Shown one piece after another: positions 31,668-39,474 of a DNA stretch of 64,000 nucleotides (within the stretch, counting starts at the first letter, position 1; each line of letters begins with the position of its first letter). The notes under the pieces were generated by a model. That model searched no databases and was not told where the DNA came from. It saw nothing but the letters and a program-made list of their open reading frames with translations. Source of the stretch: an uncultured Flavobacteriales bacterium (GTDB lineage Bacteria > Bacteroidota > Bacteroidia > Flavobacteriales > Crocinitomicaceae); the NCBI GenBank assembly GCA_946479985.1, contig CAMLIF010000003.1, positions 36,731 to 100,730 on the forward strand, given 5' to 3'. Made by a program: the position numbers and the translations under genes.

Positions 31668-31694
31668 ATAGGGGTAAACTACTTCTCAGTTGTC
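31668..31694 (+). promoter_or_regulatory. Split motif, copy 1, in front of the ECF sigma gene
   Basis: ATAGGGGTAAAC (31668-31679), four bases, then TCTCAGTTGTC (31684-31694). The same two blocks with the same spacing recur at 35376-35402 in front of the GIN-domain gene. Two-block form, spacing of GGTAAAC and GTTGTC, and position suggest an ECF-sigma-type promoter used for autoregulation. Repetition is seen directly; the role is inferred. Confidence 0.6.
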
Positions 31695-31718
31695 TTAAAC
31701 CAAAAGATGATAACTTTG
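31690..31718 (+). promoter_or_regulatory. Candidate housekeeping promoter of the ECF sigma gene
   Basis: TTG (31690-31692), 18 bases, TAACTTTG (31711-31718). It overlaps copy 1 of the split motif. Transcription would begin around 31723, next to the GTG at 31724, which argues that translation starts at ATG 31757. Confidence 0.4.
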
Positions 31719-31756
31719 CCTTTGTGAAATACACAGAGGTGGAAGAAAAACAAGTG

Positions 31757-32302
31757 ATGGCACAAGTTGTGACGGAAGATTTAAACACGTTTGAAATGGT
31801 ATTTCGCGATTATTATAAGCCGCTGGTCCGCTACGGCAACACTTTTCTGAAAGATTCAGATGAAACGGAGGATGTTGTTCAGGAGGTTTTCGTTTCTCTG
31901 TGGGAAAAAAGAACAGAGCTTGATATTCATACTTCCATTCGTGCTGTTCTCTACAAATCTGTTCAAAACGCTTGTTTGAATAAGATTAAACACTTCAAAG
32001 TGCGCAGTGCTTATGCGGAAGACTGGAAAGCAACGCAACAAGTGGAAGAAACTTCTGATTCTGTTCAGGTAAACGAATTGAATGATCGTATTCAGTTGGC
32101 AATTGACAATATGCCTGAACAATGCGGACGAATCTTTAAAATGAGCCGTTTTGAACAATTGCGCTACCAGGAAATTGCCGATGAACTTGGTTTGTCGGTA
32201 AAAACAGTAGAAAATCAAATGGGGAAAGCCCTCAAAATCGTTCGCGAAGAGTTGAAAGACTATTTGCCGTTACTCATCCTTTTTTTCATTCAAACGCTAT
32301 GA
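31757..32302 (+). CDS. ECF RNA polymerase sigma factor
   Basis: About 181-residue RpoE-type sigma factor (192 if translation starts at GTG 31724, which is in frame but immediately follows a likely -7 box). Region 2 is seen in FEMVFRDYYKPLVRYGNTF and DETEDVVQEVFVSLWEKR, region 4 in MPEQCGRIFKMSRFE and YQEIADELGLSVKTVENQM (helix-turn-helix). The stop overlaps the FecR start by 4 bp (ATGA). It is the regulator of an envelope-stress or uptake-type circuit with the FecR anti-sigma protein and the STN-domain protein that follow. It probably controls its own promoter. Confidence 0.94.
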   Translation: MAQVVTEDLNTFEMVFRDYYKPLVRYGNTFLKDSDETEDVVQEVFVSLWEKRTELDIHTSIRAVLYKSVQNACLNKIKHFKVRSAYAEDWKATQQVEETSDSVQVNELNDRIQLAIDNMPEQCGRIFKMSRFEQLRYQEIADELGLSVKTVENQMGKALKIVREELKDYLPLLILFFIQTL

Positions 32303-33249
32303 AAACATTTAATGAATTGGATGCGCTGATTGGTAAATTCCTCACTGGTGAAGCAAGCCCGGAAGAAGCTATGTTGCTGGAAGACTGGATTTCAGAATCG
32401 CATGAGAATAAAACTTATTTTGCCCAAAGTGCAAAAGCTTTCGGGTTGGTAGAGAAAGAAATTTCTACCAATGACGCCTGGAAAAAAGTGCGTGTTCAGC
32501 TAAAAAAAACTCCCGTTCGAAAACTTCAGTTTAGATGGATTTCTTCTGTTGCTGCTATTTTGATCCTCACTTTCGGAGCCATCTTCTACTTCCAAAATTC
32601 AAATAATCAAAATACTGTTTTTACTGCCGGAAATAAGGTAAAGAAAATCGAATTGAACGATGGAACTGATATTCAGTTGTCGGCAAACTCTACGGTTGAA
32701 TTGTCTGCCGATTATGGGAAGAAGAATCGCTCATTGACATTGAAAGGTTCGGGTTATTTTTCTGTAAAACACAGTAAGAAACTTCCATTTATTATTGATG
32801 CCGGACCAATTCATATCAAAGATCTCGGGACAAAGTTCGATGTAAAAACTACAGACGACACCATTTATGTTCGGGTCGACGAAGGAATTGTGGTAATCTA
32901 TGATAACAAAGGAATGCAGCTTACGCTTAATGCCAACGAAAGTGCACATTATGTCATTTCTTCTGGTGAACTGCAACTGGATGTGCTTACCGAGAATTTG
33001 AAAGCCCTGCACAAGACAGTCGTGCTGGATAATCAGCGATTGGAAGATGTTGTTGCGCTCCTGAACAAAACATACCAGGTGGATATTCGAATTGAGAATC
33101 CGGCTTTAAAAAACTGCAGAATTACTACCGAGTTTTTGAACGAAGAGCTGGATACCGTTTTAATGGTGATCTCGCAAACCCTTGAAGTCACCATTCTGAA
33201 GGAAAAAGGAGGTGTTTATTTGATTAAAGGACAGGCATGCGAACAATGA
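32299..33249 (+). CDS. FecR-family anti-sigma factor
   Basis: A 316-residue single-pass membrane protein regulating the adjacent ECF sigma factor. The N-terminal cytoplasmic part (about 1-75) would hold the sigma, the membrane segment is WISSVAAILILTFGAIFYF (about 80-98), and the periplasmic FecR domain follows (KIELNDGTDIQLSANST, FSVKHSKKLPFIIDAGPIHI), with the DUF4974-like C-terminal domain (VVALLNKTYQVDIRIENPAL). It overlaps the sigma gene by 4 bp and the following STN gene by 4 bp (ATGA), a strictly coupled set. Confidence 0.93.
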   Translation: MKTFNELDALIGKFLTGEASPEEAMLLEDWISESHENKTYFAQSAKAFGLVEKEISTNDAWKKVRVQLKKTPVRKLQFRWISSVAAILILTFGAIFYFQNSNNQNTVFTAGNKVKKIELNDGTDIQLSANSTVELSADYGKKNRSLTLKGSGYFSVKHSKKLPFIIDAGPIHIKDLGTKFDVKTTDDTIYVRVDEGIVVIYDNKGMQLTLNANESAHYVISSGELQLDVLTENLKALHKTVVLDNQRLEDVVALLNKTYQVDIRIENPALKNCRITTEFLNEELDTVLMVISQTLEVTILKEKGGVYLIKGQACEQ

Positions 33250-35126
33250 TCAAATTCCTGAGCGCAGTTTTTCTTTGCTGTTTGGCAATGAATTCTTTGA
33301 ATGCGCAAACTCCTTATTTGGAGAAAGAAGTCACTATTCGATCGGGAATTTATTCTTACGAAGAAGTGTTTAAACAAATCTCGAATCAAACGGGAGTGGT
33401 GTTTTCGTATACTGGTTTCGATGATAAGCAGCGTATTTCAGTCAAGTTTGAAAAGCAACCGCTTCGTATTGTATTGAATAATCTTTTCGATAGTGGAACC
33501 TGCACGTACAAACTGAAAGGGAAGTACGTGATTGTGAACTGTAAAACCGCTGCTGCAAAGCCTAAACAGGATAACTCTACGGCAAGTAATTCGAATGTCA
33601 TTGTTAACGGTTATGTCTTTAATGCTGAAGATTCTTCCCAGATTGCTGAGTCGAGTGTGTATTTACGCCAGAATAAACAGTCTGCAGTAACCAATGAATA
33701 CGGATATTTCAACATGTCATTCCCCAAAACAGCTGATGTACTTTCCATATCGGTTGCTAAGGAAGATTTTGAAGACACAACGGTCGTTATTTTATCACAG
33801 CAGCGAAATACAATTGTAATATATCTACAACCAAAATCAGCTCCTGTGAGTGTAATGGTGAACGATTCAATGCGTGTGACAATTTCGGTAGATTCAGTGA
33901 AAACTATCGAAACACAAGTTCAGGATACAACTCCTTACGTTAGTCCATTTTGGGAAAAATTCGCTGAAAGGCGCGCTAACCTGAGAAATATTTCAGACAC
34001 GCTGTTTAACGATGTTTCGTTTTCGTTCGTTCCGCCGTTAAGCACCAATCATCTGCTTTCCGTAAATACGGTTAACAAGTATTCTTTCAATGTACTGGTT
34101 GGTTCTTCAAAAGGGATTGATGTTTTTGAACTCGGCGGTTTGGTTAATCTCGATTATGGGAACGTAAAATCTGTCCAGGTTGGGGGAGTGGCGAATCTGG
34201 TTTCCGGAACATCGTCGGGAGTCCAGGTTGCCGGAATTGTAAACACGGTTGCGCAGGATGTAAATGGAGTTCAGGTTGCAGGAATAGTGAATATTGACGG
34301 AGCAAAAGTAGATTATGTACAAGTTGCCGGAATAGCTAATCTGGTTCAGGATACGGTAAGGGCTGTTCAGGTCGGTGGAATTACAAATCTGAACAATTCC
34401 TATACGGAAGGAGTTCAGGTTGCGGGAATTTATAACCACTCACGAAATATTTTCGGGACTCAAATTGCCGGAATAGCCAATTATTGTGATACGGTTTCGG
34501 GAAGCCAGATCTCAGGGCTGGTCAATAACGCTTCAGTTGTAAATGGATTTCAACTTTCCGGGTTAGTTAACCGGGGTGGTGAAGTGAACGGTTCTCAACT
34601 TGGATTCATGAACATTTCCAACTCCATCTCAGGAGTGCCAATAGGATTCCTGAGTATTGTAAAAACGGGCTACCATAAAGTGGAAGTTGCCGCTGATGAA
34701 AATCTGATCGGAACACTCAGTTTTCGAACAGGTGTTGATGCATTTCACAATATTTTCATTGGCGGAGTTCAGATCACAGAAAAACCATCGTTGTGGACAT
34801 TCGGTTACGGAATTGGGTCTGCTATTAAATTGAGCAGAAAGTGGTATCTGGACTTAGATCTTACTGCACAGCACATGTATTTAAGCAATACCGATTTTTC
34901 ATATAATATGCTGGCTAAAGGTTTTCTTGGGGTTGAATACCGTTTTGGAAATAATTTCAGCATTGCAGCCGGACCAACATTCAATTGGTATAATACGGAA
35001 GATATTGGTCCCGAAATCGACCCGATCTGGAGCAAAATTGAGCAGCGAACTGTCTACAATGATATCAACGGGAATTTTATGAATCGTTTGTGGGTTGGCG
35101 GGAAAGTGGCTTTGCGATTTTTTTAG
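33246..35126 (+). CDS. STN-domain surface repeat protein (LA_2272-like repeats)
   Basis: A 626-residue exported protein (signal MIKFLSAVFLCCLAMNSLNA) in the position where a TonB receptor normally follows sigma and FecR. Order: an STN domain (about 25-100, YEEVFKQISNQTGVVFSYTG), a carboxypeptidase-regulatory-like domain (about 118-200), a linker, then about 12 units of 15-16 residues with the pattern VQVAGIVN (roughly residues 293-470), and a C-terminal region with strands typical of an outer-membrane barrel. There is no TonB plug. ATG 33246 overlaps the FecR stop (ATGA) and is preferred over ATG 33237. Repeats resemble the LA_2272-type surface repeats. The function is unknown; a signal-receiving or surface-exposed effector role is inferred. 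Confidence 0.82.
   Translation: MIKFLSAVFLCCLAMNSLNAQTPYLEKEVTIRSGIYSYEEVFKQISNQTGVVFSYTGFDDKQRISVKFEKQPLRIVLNNLFDSGTCTYKLKGKYVIVNCKTAAAKPKQDNSTASNSNVIVNGYVFNAEDSSQIAESSVYLRQNKQSAVTNEYGYFNMSFPKTADVLSISVAKEDFEDTTVVILSQQRNTIVIYLQPKSAPVSVMVNDSMRVTISVDSVKTIETQVQDTTPYVSPFWEKFAERRANLRNISDTLFNDVSFSFVPPLSTNHLLSVNTVNKYSFNVLVGSSKGIDVFELGGLVNLDYGNVKSVQVGGVANLVSGTSSGVQVAGIVNTVAQDVNGVQVAGIVNIDGAKVDYVQVAGIANLVQDTVRAVQVGGITNLNNSYTEGVQVAGIYNHSRNIFGTQIAGIANYCDTVSGSQISGLVNNASVVNGFQLSGLVNRGGEVNGSQLGFMNISNSISGVPIGFLSIVKTGYHKVEVAADENLIGTLSFRTGVDAFHNIFIGGVQITEKPSLWTFGYGIGSAIKLSRKWYLDLDLTAQHMYLSNTDFSYNMLAKGFLGVEYRFGNNFSIAAGPTFNWYNTEDIGPEIDPIWSKIEQRTVYNDINGNFMNRLWVGGKVALRFF
34124..34659 (+). repeat. In-frame tandem repeats coding VQVAGIVN units
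   Basis: About twelve degenerate units of 45-48 bp inside the STN gene, each coding a hydrophobic (V/I)Q(V/I/L)(A/G/S)G(I/L/V)xN block and a variable tail. DNA copies differ strongly, so repeats are old and kept at protein level. Confidence 0.85.
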
Positions 35127-35136
35127 GACGTGACCC

Positions 35137-35157
35137 CGGGCAATTTTAAAATTCCCG
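35137..35157. terminator. Hairpin after the STN gene
   Basis: CGGG, a single bulged C, then a 12-base self-complementary AATTTTAAAATT and CCCG, starting 11 bases after the STN-gene stop. A possible terminator or stability stem, though without a T-run. Confidence 0.35.
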
Positions 35158-35158
35158 A

Positions 35159-35194
35159 TTCACACAATTTTATAAATTTATAAAATTGTGTGAA
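35159..35194. repeat. Perfect 36-bp palindrome
   Basis: Each 18-base half begins TTCACACAATTTTATAAA and the second half is its exact reverse complement, with no loop. Almost entirely A/T apart from the CACAC/GTGTG ends. It may form a cruciform, act as a binding site for a dimeric protein, or stop transcription of the upstream operon. Confidence 0.8.
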
Positions 35195-35375
35195 AAGTCT
35201 ATTCTTACAAGGATACAGAGAAAACGGGTGTAAAATTTATACGATTCACAAATCCCCAATTTTAAGAAATGTTTCTCCGGTTCTCCTAAAACCTGAAGCC
35301 TCTGCCGTGGCGCACGACTTTCGGTTTCTTCTTCCAATCTTCAATTCGAAATTCTCATGTTTTTTTGTTCCCTTC

Positions 35376-35402
35376 ATAGGGGTAAACACAATCTCAGTTG
35401 TC
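35376..35402 (+). promoter_or_regulatory. Split motif, copy 2, in front of the GIN-domain gene
   Basis: ATAGGGGTAAAC (35376-35387), four different bases, TCTCAGTTGTC (35392-35402), identical in both blocks and spacing to copy 1 at 31668-31694. No TAnnTTTG box follows at the right distance, which favours an alternative sigma factor. The leader to the ATG at 35492 would be about 80 bases. Confidence 0.6.
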
Positions 35403-35491
35403 ATAGAAACAAATAACAAAATAAGAGGAAGCACTGCTTCCGACAATATCCGCTCCAGTGGACACAAAAAAATTAAAACAATTAAAGTAAA

Positions 35492-36252: not shown

Positions 36253-36281
36253 GGAACTGAGCGGAGTCGAAGTTCCTCTTT
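36253..36281 (+). terminator. Terminator-like hairpin with GAGCGGAGTCGA loop
   Basis: Stem GGAACT / AGTTCC (36253-36258, 36271-36276) around GAGCGGAGTCGA, then TCTTTTT. It would end the GIN gene before the TonB receptor gene. The loop sequence (GAGCGGAGTCGAAG) looks like a dispersed palindromic repeat often seen in this phylum, so it may also be a repeat element. Confidence 0.5.
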
Positions 36282-36296
36282 TTAATCTCTCAAAGT

Positions 36297-38660
36297 ATGT
36301 TTCAAAACACATTAACGAAATCCTTCGTATCAGTATTGTTATGCCTTATTGTCAACACCTGTTATTCGCAAACACAAACCGTTCGCGGCACAGTGGTCGA
36401 CAATATTTCACAATCTGTTATTCCCGGAGCAATTGTCAAAGTAATTGGACTTGATTCCATCATTTATTCCGTAACGGATGAAAACGGGAAATTCACTCTT
36501 CAAAACGTTCCTGTGGGAAGCCGTACTCTGGAAATCACAGCGTACGATTACAAGCCGGTCACCATGCAAAACGTCACTGTAAATGCAGGAAAGGAATTGG
36601 TGCTAACCATCAATATGGAAGAAGACCTTAAAAAAATCGATGAGGTAGTCATTACTTCCAAAACAGACAAAAATAAACCGCTTAACGAACTTTCTACGGT
36701 TAGTACCAGAACGTTTTCGGTGGAAGAAACGCAGAAGTTTGCCGCTGCGGTGAATGATCCGGCTCGAATGGCAACTTCTTTCGCGGGAGTTGTAACGGCT
36801 GGCGACGGAAATAATCATATTTCGATCAGGGGGAACTCACCAAACGGGCTGTTATGGCGAATGGAAGGTGTTGAGATTCCCAATCCCAATCACTTTTCGA
36901 ATGTTGGAACAGCGGGGGGTGGAATCTCTATTTTGAGTTCGCAGCTCCTGAGTAATTCTGATTTTTCAACTGGAGCATTTGCCGCAGAATATGGAAATGC
37001 GCTTTCGGGTGTGTTCGATCTGCGATTGAGAAAAGGAAACAATGAAAAACGCGAATATACCGTCCAGTTTGGTTTCCTTGGAATTGATGTGGCTGCCGAA
37101 GGCCCGTTCAAAAAAGGCTACGATGGTTCTTACCTCATCAATTATCGGTATTCTACACTAAATGTTTTAGGGAAAATCGGCGTTCCGATTGGAGATGCAA
37201 ATACCAATTTCCAGGATTTATCGTTCAACTTTTACTTGCCAACAAAGCAATTGGGAAAATTCACGGTGTTTGGTTTCGGTGGATTAAGTTACCAGACTAC
37301 AACAGCCGAAAAAGACTCAATTCGATGGCAGCAGGATGATTTTCTCAGGCTGAACACCAATTTCTATAGCAATACCGGGGCAGTCGGCGTTACAAACACC
37401 AAACTCTTCAGGAATAAATCTTACCTGAAAACAGCGCTTGTTTTTTCGGGAACCGAAAACGGTTATGAACGGGATCGGTTAGAATACGATTATTCATCTC
37501 TTACACGTGAATACGAACAAAGTTTTTTACAAAACAAACTCACGCTTTCAAGCACATACACCCAAAAACTGAATGCCAAAAATAATATCCGGGCAGGATT
37601 TATCCTGAATCATTTGGGATACGGTTTGAAGCAAAGCGACATAGGAGATTCTACTGTTTTACGTGAGCAAATCAATGAAAAAGGAAATACAGAAACTGCG
37701 CAGGTGTTTTTCCAGTGGAATTCCCACATCACAGAAAAACTCACAACGAATGTCGGAGTTCATTATTTCCAGCTTTTCCTGAACAACAGCAATGCTATAG
37801 AACCACGGGCTTCGGTTCGCTATGATCTTCATCCAAAGCATCACCTGACTTTGGGTTATGGTTTACACAGTCAGTTGCAGCCGATTGGGGTTTATTTTGT
37901 AGAAAACACTGAAAATGGAATAACTACCCTTCCGAACCGGAATTTGAAGTTGAGTAAAGCGCATCACGCTGTTTTTGGATATGATTTCATTCTGAATGAA
38001 CATGAGCATATCAAGACGGAAGTGTATTACCAGCATTTATTCAATGTTCCGATTAGCAAAGATCCGGCAAGCACGTATTCCATTTTGAATTCAACAGATG
38101 GTTTTCCGTCTGAATCGCTTAGTAATTCAGGGCTCGGAAAGAATTATGGGTTGGAACTAACCTATGAACGATTCCTGTTTAAAAATCTGTATTACCTGCT
38201 TTCGGCATCGTTGTACGAATCGAAATACAAAGCACCGAACGGTGAGTGGTATGACACACGATTCAATACGAATTACGCTACTTCATTAACAGTTGGGAAG
38301 GAATGGAACCTGAAGAACAAGGAGAAAAACAAAACAATCGGGTTCAATATCAAATCTATTTATGTTGGCGGATTCCGTTATACTCCAATTGATCTGAATG
38401 CTTCCATAGCGGCGGGTGAAACGAAATTTGTAACGTCAGAAACCTTTGGGAAAAGAATGCCCGACTATTACCGGTTGGATATTCGTTTCAGCCTGAAGCG
38501 TAACTATAAAAGTCTCACTAGTACGCTGGCGCTCGATATTCAGAATACAACCAACAGAAAGAACGTTGGCGGGCAATATTTCGATGAGAAAACCGGAAAA
38601 GTGAATTACTGGTACCAAACATCATTGATTCCGATTCTCAGTTATCGCTTAGAGTTTTGA
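36297..38660 (+). CDS. TonB-dependent outer-membrane receptor
   Basis: A 787-residue outer-membrane receptor: signal peptide (about 1-24), carboxypeptidase-regulatory-like domain (VRGTVVDNISQSVIPGAIVK, about 28-105), plug domain (about 140-245, with ISIRGNSPNGLLWRMEGVEI and AAEYGNALSGVFDLRLRKG), then a barrel ending YWYQTSLIPILSYRLEF with a terminal Phe. There is no STN domain at the N-terminus. Substrate unknown. It follows the GIN gene by 79 bp with a hairpin between, so it is probably regulated separately, although read-through is possible. Confidence 0.92.
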   Translation: MFQNTLTKSFVSVLLCLIVNTCYSQTQTVRGTVVDNISQSVIPGAIVKVIGLDSIIYSVTDENGKFTLQNVPVGSRTLEITAYDYKPVTMQNVTVNAGKELVLTINMEEDLKKIDEVVITSKTDKNKPLNELSTVSTRTFSVEETQKFAAAVNDPARMATSFAGVVTAGDGNNHISIRGNSPNGLLWRMEGVEIPNPNHFSNVGTAGGGISILSSQLLSNSDFSTGAFAAEYGNALSGVFDLRLRKGNNEKREYTVQFGFLGIDVAAEGPFKKGYDGSYLINYRYSTLNVLGKIGVPIGDANTNFQDLSFNFYLPTKQLGKFTVFGFGGLSYQTTTAEKDSIRWQQDDFLRLNTNFYSNTGAVGVTNTKLFRNKSYLKTALVFSGTENGYERDRLEYDYSSLTREYEQSFLQNKLTLSSTYTQKLNAKNNIRAGFILNHLGYGLKQSDIGDSTVLREQINEKGNTETAQVFFQWNSHITEKLTTNVGVHYFQLFLNNSNAIEPRASVRYDLHPKHHLTLGYGLHSQLQPIGVYFVENTENGITTLPNRNLKLSKAHHAVFGYDFILNEHEHIKTEVYYQHLFNVPISKDPASTYSILNSTDGFPSESLSNSGLGKNYGLELTYERFLFKNLYYLLSASLYESKYKAPNGEWYDTRFNTNYATSLTVGKEWNLKNKEKNKTIGFNIKSIYVGGFRYTPIDLNASIAAGETKFVTSETFGKRMPDYYRLDIRFSLKRNYKSLTSTLALDIQNTTNRKNVGGQYFDEKTGKVNYWYQTSLIPILSYRLEF

Positions 38661-38751: not shown

Positions 38752-39474
38752 TTATATCCCCAATCTTTGCTTCACGTCGCTGTATGAATTACGGGAAATA
38801 GGAATGCGTTTCCCGTTTTTCAGAATGGCAATATAACTGTTCTTTTCAAACGATTCGATTTTGTTCAGATAATCGATGTTTAACATGTATGAGCGATGGA
38901 TGCGCATAAATTGAGTTGGCAGATTCTTCTCGTAGTAACTCATTGTTTGCTTCTTGATGTGGTAACGATCTTCGATATGAATTTTCACATAATCATCGTA
39001 CGCCTCAATATACTGCACCTCTTCCAGCGGAATAATTTTGATGTCAGAACCGTGTTTCACCACAATACGCGCCTGCTCCAGGTTCGATTTTGCCAATTCC
39101 ACTGCAATAGGAGGAATAATGGCAGGGGTTGAACGAACTACTTTTGTCAGCGCGGTAGAGAATCGTTCCAGCGAAAACGGTTTCAATAAATAATCCAAAG
39201 CGTTTACTTCAAAAGCTTTAAACGCAAATTCATCGTAAGCAGTTGTGAAAATGATGAATGGCGGTTCGTCCAGTAGTTCCAGCATCTCAAAGCCGTTTAA
39301 TTTCGGCATTTGAACATCCAGAAAAAGAATATCGGGCTGCGTAGTTTGAATCAGTTTCAATGCTTCAAATCCGTCACCTGCTTCTCCGACAATTTCGTAT
39401 CCGCCCAATTCATTCAGGTACGATTTAACTACGGATCGTGCTAATGGTTCGTCGTCAATAATGAGTGCTTTCAT
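38752..39474 (-). CDS. LytTR-family response regulator
   Basis: A 240-residue response regulator: receiver with DDEP acidic cluster, phospho-acceptor Asp53 in LFLDVQMPKLNG and LLKPF; LytTR DNA-binding domain over the last about 100 residues (VQYIEAYDDYVKIH, FMRIHRSYMLNIDYL). The start overlaps the stop of the LytS-type kinase gene by 4 bp, so the pair is a two-component system; a LiaF-like membrane protein gene heads the operon. Confidence 0.95.
   Translation of the reverse strand: MKALIIDDEPLARSVVKSYLNELGGYEIVGEAGDGFEALKLIQTTQPDILFLDVQMPKLNGFEMLELLDEPPFIIFTTAYDEFAFKAFEVNALDYLLKPFSLERFSTALTKVVRSTPAIIPPIAVELAKSNLEQARIVVKHGSDIKIIPLEEVQYIEAYDDYVKIHIEDRYHIKKQTMSYYEKNLPTQFMRIHRSYMLNIDYLNKIESFEKNSYIAILKNGKRIPISRNSYSDVKQRLGI

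Follow-up and report, generated by a model that had tools for sequence, protein, structure and literature searches.

A two-block candidate promoter ahead of an ECF sigma factor operon and a GIN lipoprotein gene in Crocinitomicaceae and other Bacteroidota

The sigma factor cluster and its two motif copies

In the DNA analysed here, a window of 64,000 nucleotides from an uncultured Flavobacteriales bacterium of the Crocinitomicaceae (contig CAMLIF010000003.1), the genes for an extracytoplasmic function (ECF) sigma factor, a FecR-type anti-sigma factor, a predicted outer-membrane protein, a GIN-domain (DUF2807) lipoprotein and a TonB-dependent receptor follow each other on one strand (Table 1). 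The same split motif, ATAGGGGTAAAC-N4-TCTCAGTTGTC, stands ahead of the sigma factor operon (copy 1) and ahead of the lipoprotein gene (copy 2). As a preliminary description of this DNA had pointed out, the two 27-bp copies have identical blocks and identical spacing, whereas the four intervening bases (TACT in copy 1, ACAA in copy 2) and the flanks differ, and both copies lie just upstream of genes on their own strand. Copy 1 ends 29 nt before the earliest possible start of the sigma open reading frame (ORF), a GTG at 31724, although the true start may lie downstream of it, and there are 89 nt between copy 2 and the ATG (35492) of the lipoprotein gene. No third match was found in the 64-kb window at a tolerance of up to three mismatches, and 100 dinucleotide shuffles of the window gave none at all, so that no copy is expected by chance. 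The box TAACTTTG, which resembles the -7 box of housekeeping promoters, follows copy 1, and none follows copy 2, again as first described. The length of 27 bp holds for the sequence of the window, but the part conserved in relatives is shorter: the consensus there is (A/G)TAGGGGTAA ... TTGTC-N-TA, with 13 bases separating AGGGGTA from TTGTC, and TCTCAG is only partly conserved beyond the nearest kin.

Table 1. Features of the sigma factor cluster, in window coordinates.
Feature	Position	Strand	Basis or remark
Candidate promoter copy 1 (P1)	31668..31694	+	proposed to drive the sigma-FecR-sensor operon
-35-like block of P1, AGGGGTAA	31670-31677	+	sequence; conserved ahead of homologous sigma genes
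-10-like block of P1, TTGTC	31690-31694	+	13 bases past AGGGGTA
Housekeeping -7-like box, TAACTTTG	31711..31718	+	16 nt past P1; second, basal promoter proposed
ECF sigma factor	31724..32302	+	TIGR02985, 174.9 bits (curated cut-off 126.4)
FecR-type anti-sigma factor	32299..33249	+	FecR (PF04773) and FecR_C (PF16344) domains
Proposed outer-membrane sensor, 629 aa	33237..35126	+	predicted domains
Candidate promoter copy 2 (P2)	35376..35402	+	blocks and spacing as in P1, -7 box absent; candidate promoter of the GIN lipoprotein gene and probably also of the TonB receptor gene
GIN-domain (DUF2807) lipoprotein, 241 aa	35492..36217	+	Pfam PF10988, 159.3 bits (cut-off 24.2)
TonB-dependent receptor	36297..38660	+	CarboxypepD-reg and plug domains

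Both regions typical of ECF sigma factors, 2 and 4, are present in the sigma protein (PF04542 and PF08281). The anti-sigma factor is encoded beside its sigma, the FecR ORF sharing four bases with the end of the sigma ORF, and the sigma, FecR and 629-aa ORFs overlap in one operon behind copy 1. The GIN lipoprotein has a lipobox-like FTSC close to its N-terminus (judged by eye) and has matches among solved structures, for instance 3jx8 and 3pet. The TonB receptor gene starts about 80 bp past the GIN gene and probably shares its transcription unit; no STN domain match was found in this receptor. A LytTR response regulator gene (38752-39474) and a histidine kinase gene lie directly behind the cluster.

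Several further repeats occur in the spacers of the cluster. A perfect 36-bp palindrome without a loop (arms of 18 nt each) at 35159-35194 lies between the sensor gene and copy 2, and no counterpart of it was found in the matching stretches of L001-L004 (numbers with L denote loci of relatives, and those with G genomes). The leader of the GIN gene past the motif (35403-35491) is 89 nt long in the window versus about 26-39 nt in the closest relatives, and contains the 15-nt palindrome GGAAGCAGTGCTTCC at 35427-35441. A hairpin-forming sequence, GGAACTGAGCGGAGTCGAAGTTCC, at 36253-36276 between the GIN and TonB receptor genes is possibly a terminator or a repeat element. The sequence CTGAGCGGAGTCGAAG was found once in the window.

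Geometry and conservation in related loci

The motif was examined in the loci of the best 80 of 568 confirmed relatives of the sigma protein in genome records (937,493 bases in total). The nearest sigma factors, 84-88% identical, are those of UBA7666, a record titled Glaciecola amylolytica and Fluviicola chungangensis, followed by that of Fluviicola sp. B02.bin.61 (72%). The other 76 are 45-58% identical, and nearly all of their records bear the names of Bacteroidota taxa (L068 has no title beyond 'bacterium'). The complete genome titled Glaciecola amylolytica, a gammaproteobacterium (L002; CP034120.1), carries the whole cluster with 87% sigma identity and groups in one family sample with Fluviicola genomes; this record is probably mislabelled.

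With at most one mismatch, AGGGGTA-N13-TTGTC occurs 119 times in the 80 loci, compared with one to six times in each of five Markov shuffles. Exact AGGGGTA and TTGTC blocks on the sigma strand are found 62 times at a spacing of 13 and once at a spacing of 19, but never at spacings of 8-12 or 14-18, and on the opposite strand they are absent at every spacing from 8 to 19. The fixed spacing, the fixed orientation and the absence of dyad symmetry agree better with a -35/-10 promoter than with the operator of a dimeric regulator. The copies ahead of target genes are placed accordingly in the majority of cases: 33 of 52 end 18-34 nt ahead of the mechanically called ORF start (GIN genes, 5/9; TonB receptor genes, 9/21; genes for solenoid-barrel proteins like the proposed sensor, 19/22), and for several of those outside this range the ORF finder had taken an upstream in-frame start. 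A directional bipartite element with fixed spacing, upstream of genes that include the sigma factor's own operon, is what would be expected of an ECF-type promoter, as far as sequence can tell.

The position of the motif relative to the sigma gene is also informative. It stands just upstream, with at most one mismatch, in 52 of 79 scanned sigma ORFs, and among the 27 exceptions, two are over-long ORF calls that contain the motif (L001 and L034) and four have two mismatches (L006, L036, L063 and L069). Ten others sit no more than about 175 bp behind a GIN or TonB receptor gene of a motif-headed unit (L035, L041, L052, L053, L055, L057, L059, L068, L072 and L076), two lie behind such a unit at a distance of over 1 kb (L047 and L080), and two have the motif between sigma and fecR (L046 and L061). 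Where the gene order is altered, the motif is thus often found ahead of the first gene of the unit, and it tends to move with the start of the transcription unit. When the sigma factors were thinned to less than 60% identity, 23 of 26 clusters retained a motif, which lay before the sigma gene in 15 of the 26. The placement between sigma and fecR is seen at 6543-6567 in L046 and at 6529-6553 in L061, and also in L287, L289, L294, L299, L307 and L308; in these loci the anti-sigma and sensor unit, not the sigma factor itself, would be the target.

These features bear on the possibility that the element is the site of another transcription factor, either the LytTR regulator or an unlinked activator, with the sigma factor itself as one target. 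The regulator and kinase genes are indeed adjacent to the cluster, and conservation of a motif by itself names no protein. However, the two blocks are unlike each other's reverse complement, their spacing of exactly 13 and their orientation are fixed, most target copies stand where a -35/-10 pair would sit, and the presence of the motif tracks this sigma factor across genomes (see below). Moreover, 26 loci from related genomes showed no LytTR homolog; three of them, L296, L309 and L310, reach beyond the TonB receptor gene by more than 1 kb. The LytTR homologs seen in three of the 80 loci say little, because these loci end about 6 kb after the sigma gene, short of the place of the LytTR gene. 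Control by such a factor is therefore very improbable.

The copies ahead of sigma operons differ from those ahead of targets in one further respect. A housekeeping-like -7 box (TA[AT][ACT]TT[TG], 14-34 nt downstream) follows 43 of 54 sigma copies and only one of 54 target copies (GIN genes, 0/11; TonB receptor genes, 1/21; solenoid-barrel genes, 0/22), although this pattern was picked after the sequences had been inspected. A related box pattern gave 40/54, 0/54 and, in control windows, 4/330, while the strict form TAnnTTTG, which serves the primary sigma factor of Flavobacterium psychrophilum as its -7 box according to the available part of the source (PMC9723704), gave 12/54 versus 0/54. In loci thinned by sigma identity, the contrast is 9/15 versus 1/19 (p = 0.0015). 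The presence of the box at sigma-operon copies, and not at target copies, suggests that transcription of the sigma operon is both basal and autoregulated; a basal housekeeping promoter for this operon seems likely.

Specificity for the adjacent sigma factor

A genome-wide scan for the motif, which the preliminary description had proposed as a check, was made in relatives. In the four nearest whole genomes, a 21-base pattern with at most three mismatches matched 2, 2, 2 and 1 times, in every case in the homologous cluster of the sigma factor, and the reversed pattern did not match in these genomes. The shorter exact pattern TAGGGGTA-N13-TTGTC gave 57 matches in 29 of 38 genomes, compared with eight for its reversal; in G004, one of its two matches lies off the cluster, before a small-barrel gene.

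The genomes of six relatives contain 19-36 TIGR02985-like matches each (165 in total), and the loci of 30 of these were scanned. All six loci above the family cut-off, which hold the top-scoring TIGR02985 sigma factor of the six genomes, carry the motif, whereas none of the other 24 does, their best candidates having at least four mismatches of 13. Among 120 genomes of the family, 42 exact matches are distributed over 21 genomes. The motif was present in 17 of 25 genomes with the sigma factor (E < 1e-40, a threshold set after the list had been viewed) and in 4 of 95 without it (p = 2.5e-11). At the search's own threshold of 1e-25, the numbers were 20/30 and 1/90 (p = 1.9e-14), while the reversed pattern at the 1e-40 split gave 6/25 and 10/95 (p = 0.10). 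The sigma match contains one stop codon in G113 (C3:508770-509312) and two in G043 (C7:146843-147397), and the latter genome keeps a motif ahead of a GIN gene.

The element could also be a promoter of another of the many TIGR02985-like sigma factors in each genome, so that the operon of the adjacent sigma factor would be just one of its targets. ECF sigma factors can overlap, the six relatives are rich in candidates, and in some genomes whose sigma homologs are weaker, the motif lies between sigma and fecR. Because the motif is confined to the six loci above the cut-off among the scanned paralogs, and the presence of this particular sigma factor predicts that of the motif, we regard such an assignment as very unlikely. 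That copy 2 is merely a recent, functionless duplicate of the region upstream of the sigma gene, as the identity of both blocks within the window might suggest, is contradicted by the different central bases and flanks, by second copies with different spacers before the GIN gene in L001-L005, by copies with different spacers before GIN or other targets in many other loci, and in general by the conservation of the motif across loci, and can practically be discarded.

The genes behind the motif mostly encode envelope proteins or parts of the signalling operon. Of the 42 exact matches in the 120 genomes, 16 precede GIN genes, five sigma genes, six fecR genes, five TonB receptor genes and six other genes whose products seem to be secreted or located in the outer membrane (by visual inspection for signal peptides), while four fit none of these classes. 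Of the 57 matches to the shorter pattern, 22 lie outside the cluster loci, and 17 of these are accounted for by five GIN genes, one DUF4097 gene, three TonB receptor genes, one paralogous sigma-fecR-stn operon, two ORFs in L128 whose N-termini resemble those of TonB receptors (the first by a weak match, the second by eye) and five small outer-membrane barrel genes (four OMP_b-brl matches below the cut-off, and that in L136 by eye). Of the other five, two belong to similar arrangements of short ORFs and one goes with a response-regulator-like ORF; one lies 316 nt from the next start and one inside an ORF. Some motif-led genes in relatives encode STN-less copies of the sensor's own solenoid-barrel. 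The preliminary description had envisaged autoregulation and one further target; the GIN lipoprotein gene remains a probable target, but "one" is too narrow in general, as the TonB receptor gene is probably transcribed with it and additional GIN, TonB receptor, small-barrel and solenoid-barrel genes carry the motif in relatives.

Several observations weigh against dependence of the element on the adjacent sigma factor, or against parts of the circuit proposed below. With at most one mismatch allowed, 27 of the 79 scanned sigma ORFs have no motif just upstream, and seven of them (L042, L056, L064, L073, L074, L077 and L079) belong to none of the groups listed above and have no motif there; eight of the 25 genomes with the sigma factor have no exact motif. 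The reversed pattern occurs 19 times in 16 of the 120 genomes (the real one, 42 times in 21) and eight times in the 38 genomes (the real one, 57 times), so that single matches can be due to chance, and with a looser pattern allowing one mismatch in seven genomes, the reversed control (245) even exceeded the real count (175), so that only exact or near-exact matches are informative. The windows searched for the -7 box in related loci are not independent, and thinning weakens the contrast. Most GIN genes lack the motif: 58 DUF2807 matches in 12 genomes correspond to about 54 genes once split matches are merged, and the exact motif stands at nine of these and a looser form upstream of three more. 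GIN genes are thus strongly enriched behind the motif, yet most of them are outside the regulon. Finally, the window's own sensor falls short of the Pfam STN model at an E-value of 1. In spite of these points, the specificity for the cluster, the distribution among paralogs, the co-occurrence across genomes and the fixed orientation and spacing all support the proposal, made in the preliminary description, of a promoter read by the adjacent ECF sigma factor, and we infer that both elements are very probably promoters dependent on it.

The proposed circuit and related systems

The third protein of the operon is predicted to consist of a signal peptide, an STN-like fold (residues 31-102), a CarboxypepD-reg-like domain (about 119-201), a linker, a beta-solenoid (about 255-476) built of GVQVAGIxN repeats and, at 477-629, an 8-strand OmpA-like barrel. 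The structure model of the window's protein has the strand and helix order of an STN domain at 31-102, and 24 of 26 members of its family match Pfam STN (PF07660) at E-values of up to 1 (best, 7e-12). The protein therefore resembles a sensor in which an STN domain is joined to a beta-solenoid and an OmpA-like 8-strand barrel. Its assignment as a TonB-dependent receptor was considered and rejected: this STN carrier has neither a plug domain nor the barrel of a TonB receptor.

The circuit would operate as follows. A signal would enter by way of this third protein, whose barrel would reside in the outer membrane, with the beta-solenoid as a stalk linking the barrel to the STN domain, and the latter would contact the periplasmic part of FecR. 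That the protein acts as the signal transducer in this manner is a view to which we incline slightly. FecR would then free the sigma factor, which would bind AGGGGTAA as its -35 and TTGTC-N-TA as its -10 element. The sigma factor would transcribe its own operon (sigma, anti-sigma and the sensor anchored in the outer membrane), which amounts to positive autoregulation. It would also transcribe the GIN lipoprotein gene and probably, together with it, the adjoining TonB receptor gene. Basal amounts of sigma factor would be supplied by the housekeeping promoter, of which the TAnnTTTG-like box just downstream of copy 1 would be part, while the target promoters, which have no such box, would depend on the sigma factor alone. 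Because the outputs belong for the most part to the outer membrane or the surface, and some of those in relatives are STN-less copies of the sensor's solenoid-barrel, the circuit would most readily be understood as adjusting the make-up of the cell surface; surface homeostasis as its actual purpose is a tentative suggestion, and one about which we have some doubt.

We place the proposed circuit among the FecI/FecR systems of cell-surface signalling, as a variant with a newly defined promoter. As far as the available portions of the sources go (PMC9249621 and PMC11637429), it shares with the FecI-FecR-FecA systems (Fec of Escherichia coli; Fpv, Fox and Pup of Pseudomonas) an ECF sigma factor with a FecR-type anti-sigma factor (FecR and FecR_C domains) and an outer-membrane protein that bears an STN-type signalling domain, and here too the probable targets include a TonB receptor gene. 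In the FecIRA systems, however, the STN domain is carried by the TonB receptor, whereas the carrier here appears to be a beta-solenoid with an 8-strand OmpA-like barrel and no plug. Furthermore, transcription of fecIR is by sigma70 and hasI shows no autoregulation (PMC9249621, in the part available); the motif before the sigma gene suggests that the present sigma operon would differ in being autoregulated.

The Dma/Das system of Bacteroides thetaiotaomicron (ECF21) likewise has a Bacteroidota ECF sigma factor and a surface-tied anti-sigma arrangement that spans from the cytoplasm to an outer-membrane beta-barrel, but a single Dma polypeptide spans both membranes according to the accessible text (PMC13088901), whereas the anti-sigma factor and the barrel are separate ORFs here, with STN as the proposed connector. 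Membership in the Dma type was rejected, since the anti-sigma domain and the barrel are not in one polypeptide. The SM6 promoters of F. psychrophilum, in the portion of PMC9723704 that is available, also belong to a Bacteroidota ECF class with a sigma/anti-sigma pair among its own targets; the elements here are a -10 of TTGTC and a -35 of AGGGGTAA, and the targets are GIN, outer-membrane barrel and TonB receptor genes. The nearest likeness to TTGTC as a -10 is found in the non-canonical 'TGTT' promoters of B. thetaiotaomicron proposed for the ECF sigma factors SigW-1 and SigH-1, although the TGTT motif was not significant for SigW-1 in that paper's own test, no AGGGGTAA block is described at -35 and the genes concerned are sulfatase and SusC/D genes, all within the part of the text available (PMC12596196). 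The window's lipoprotein belongs to the same Pfam family as the DUF2807/head-GIN adhesins, such as PGN_1547 of Porphyromonas gingivalis, which was found by means of a CRISPR-Cas mutant and whose published description, in its available part, makes no mention of control by a sigma factor. Neither the motif nor the regulon was found in the literature searched, the coverage of which was incomplete and did not include the main ECF classification.

Bacteroidota genomes contain dozens of ECF sigma factors, and to our knowledge few of these have a known promoter. The present results provide a sharp promoter rule for one widely distributed sigma clade with a likely regulon (GIN proteins, TonB receptors, small barrels and solenoid-barrels), and GIN/DUF2807 proteins, which are mostly of unknown function, gain a regulatory context. 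Judged from the related loci, this small circuit appears to recur in many Bacteroidota. Tentatively, and with confidence that falls a little short of even, we propose that it represents a widespread, TonB-receptor-free branch of cell-surface signalling in Bacteroidota, in which an outer-membrane beta-solenoid/OmpA-like barrel protein bears the STN domain and senses the condition or composition of the outer membrane, not a nutrient that is imported, and in which FecR frees a sigma factor, autoregulated from a tandem housekeeping/ECF promoter, that renews surface proteins including STN-less solenoid-barrels in a homeostatic loop. If the STN-solenoid-barrel protein is indeed the transducer, signalling through STN and FecR does not need a TonB receptor.

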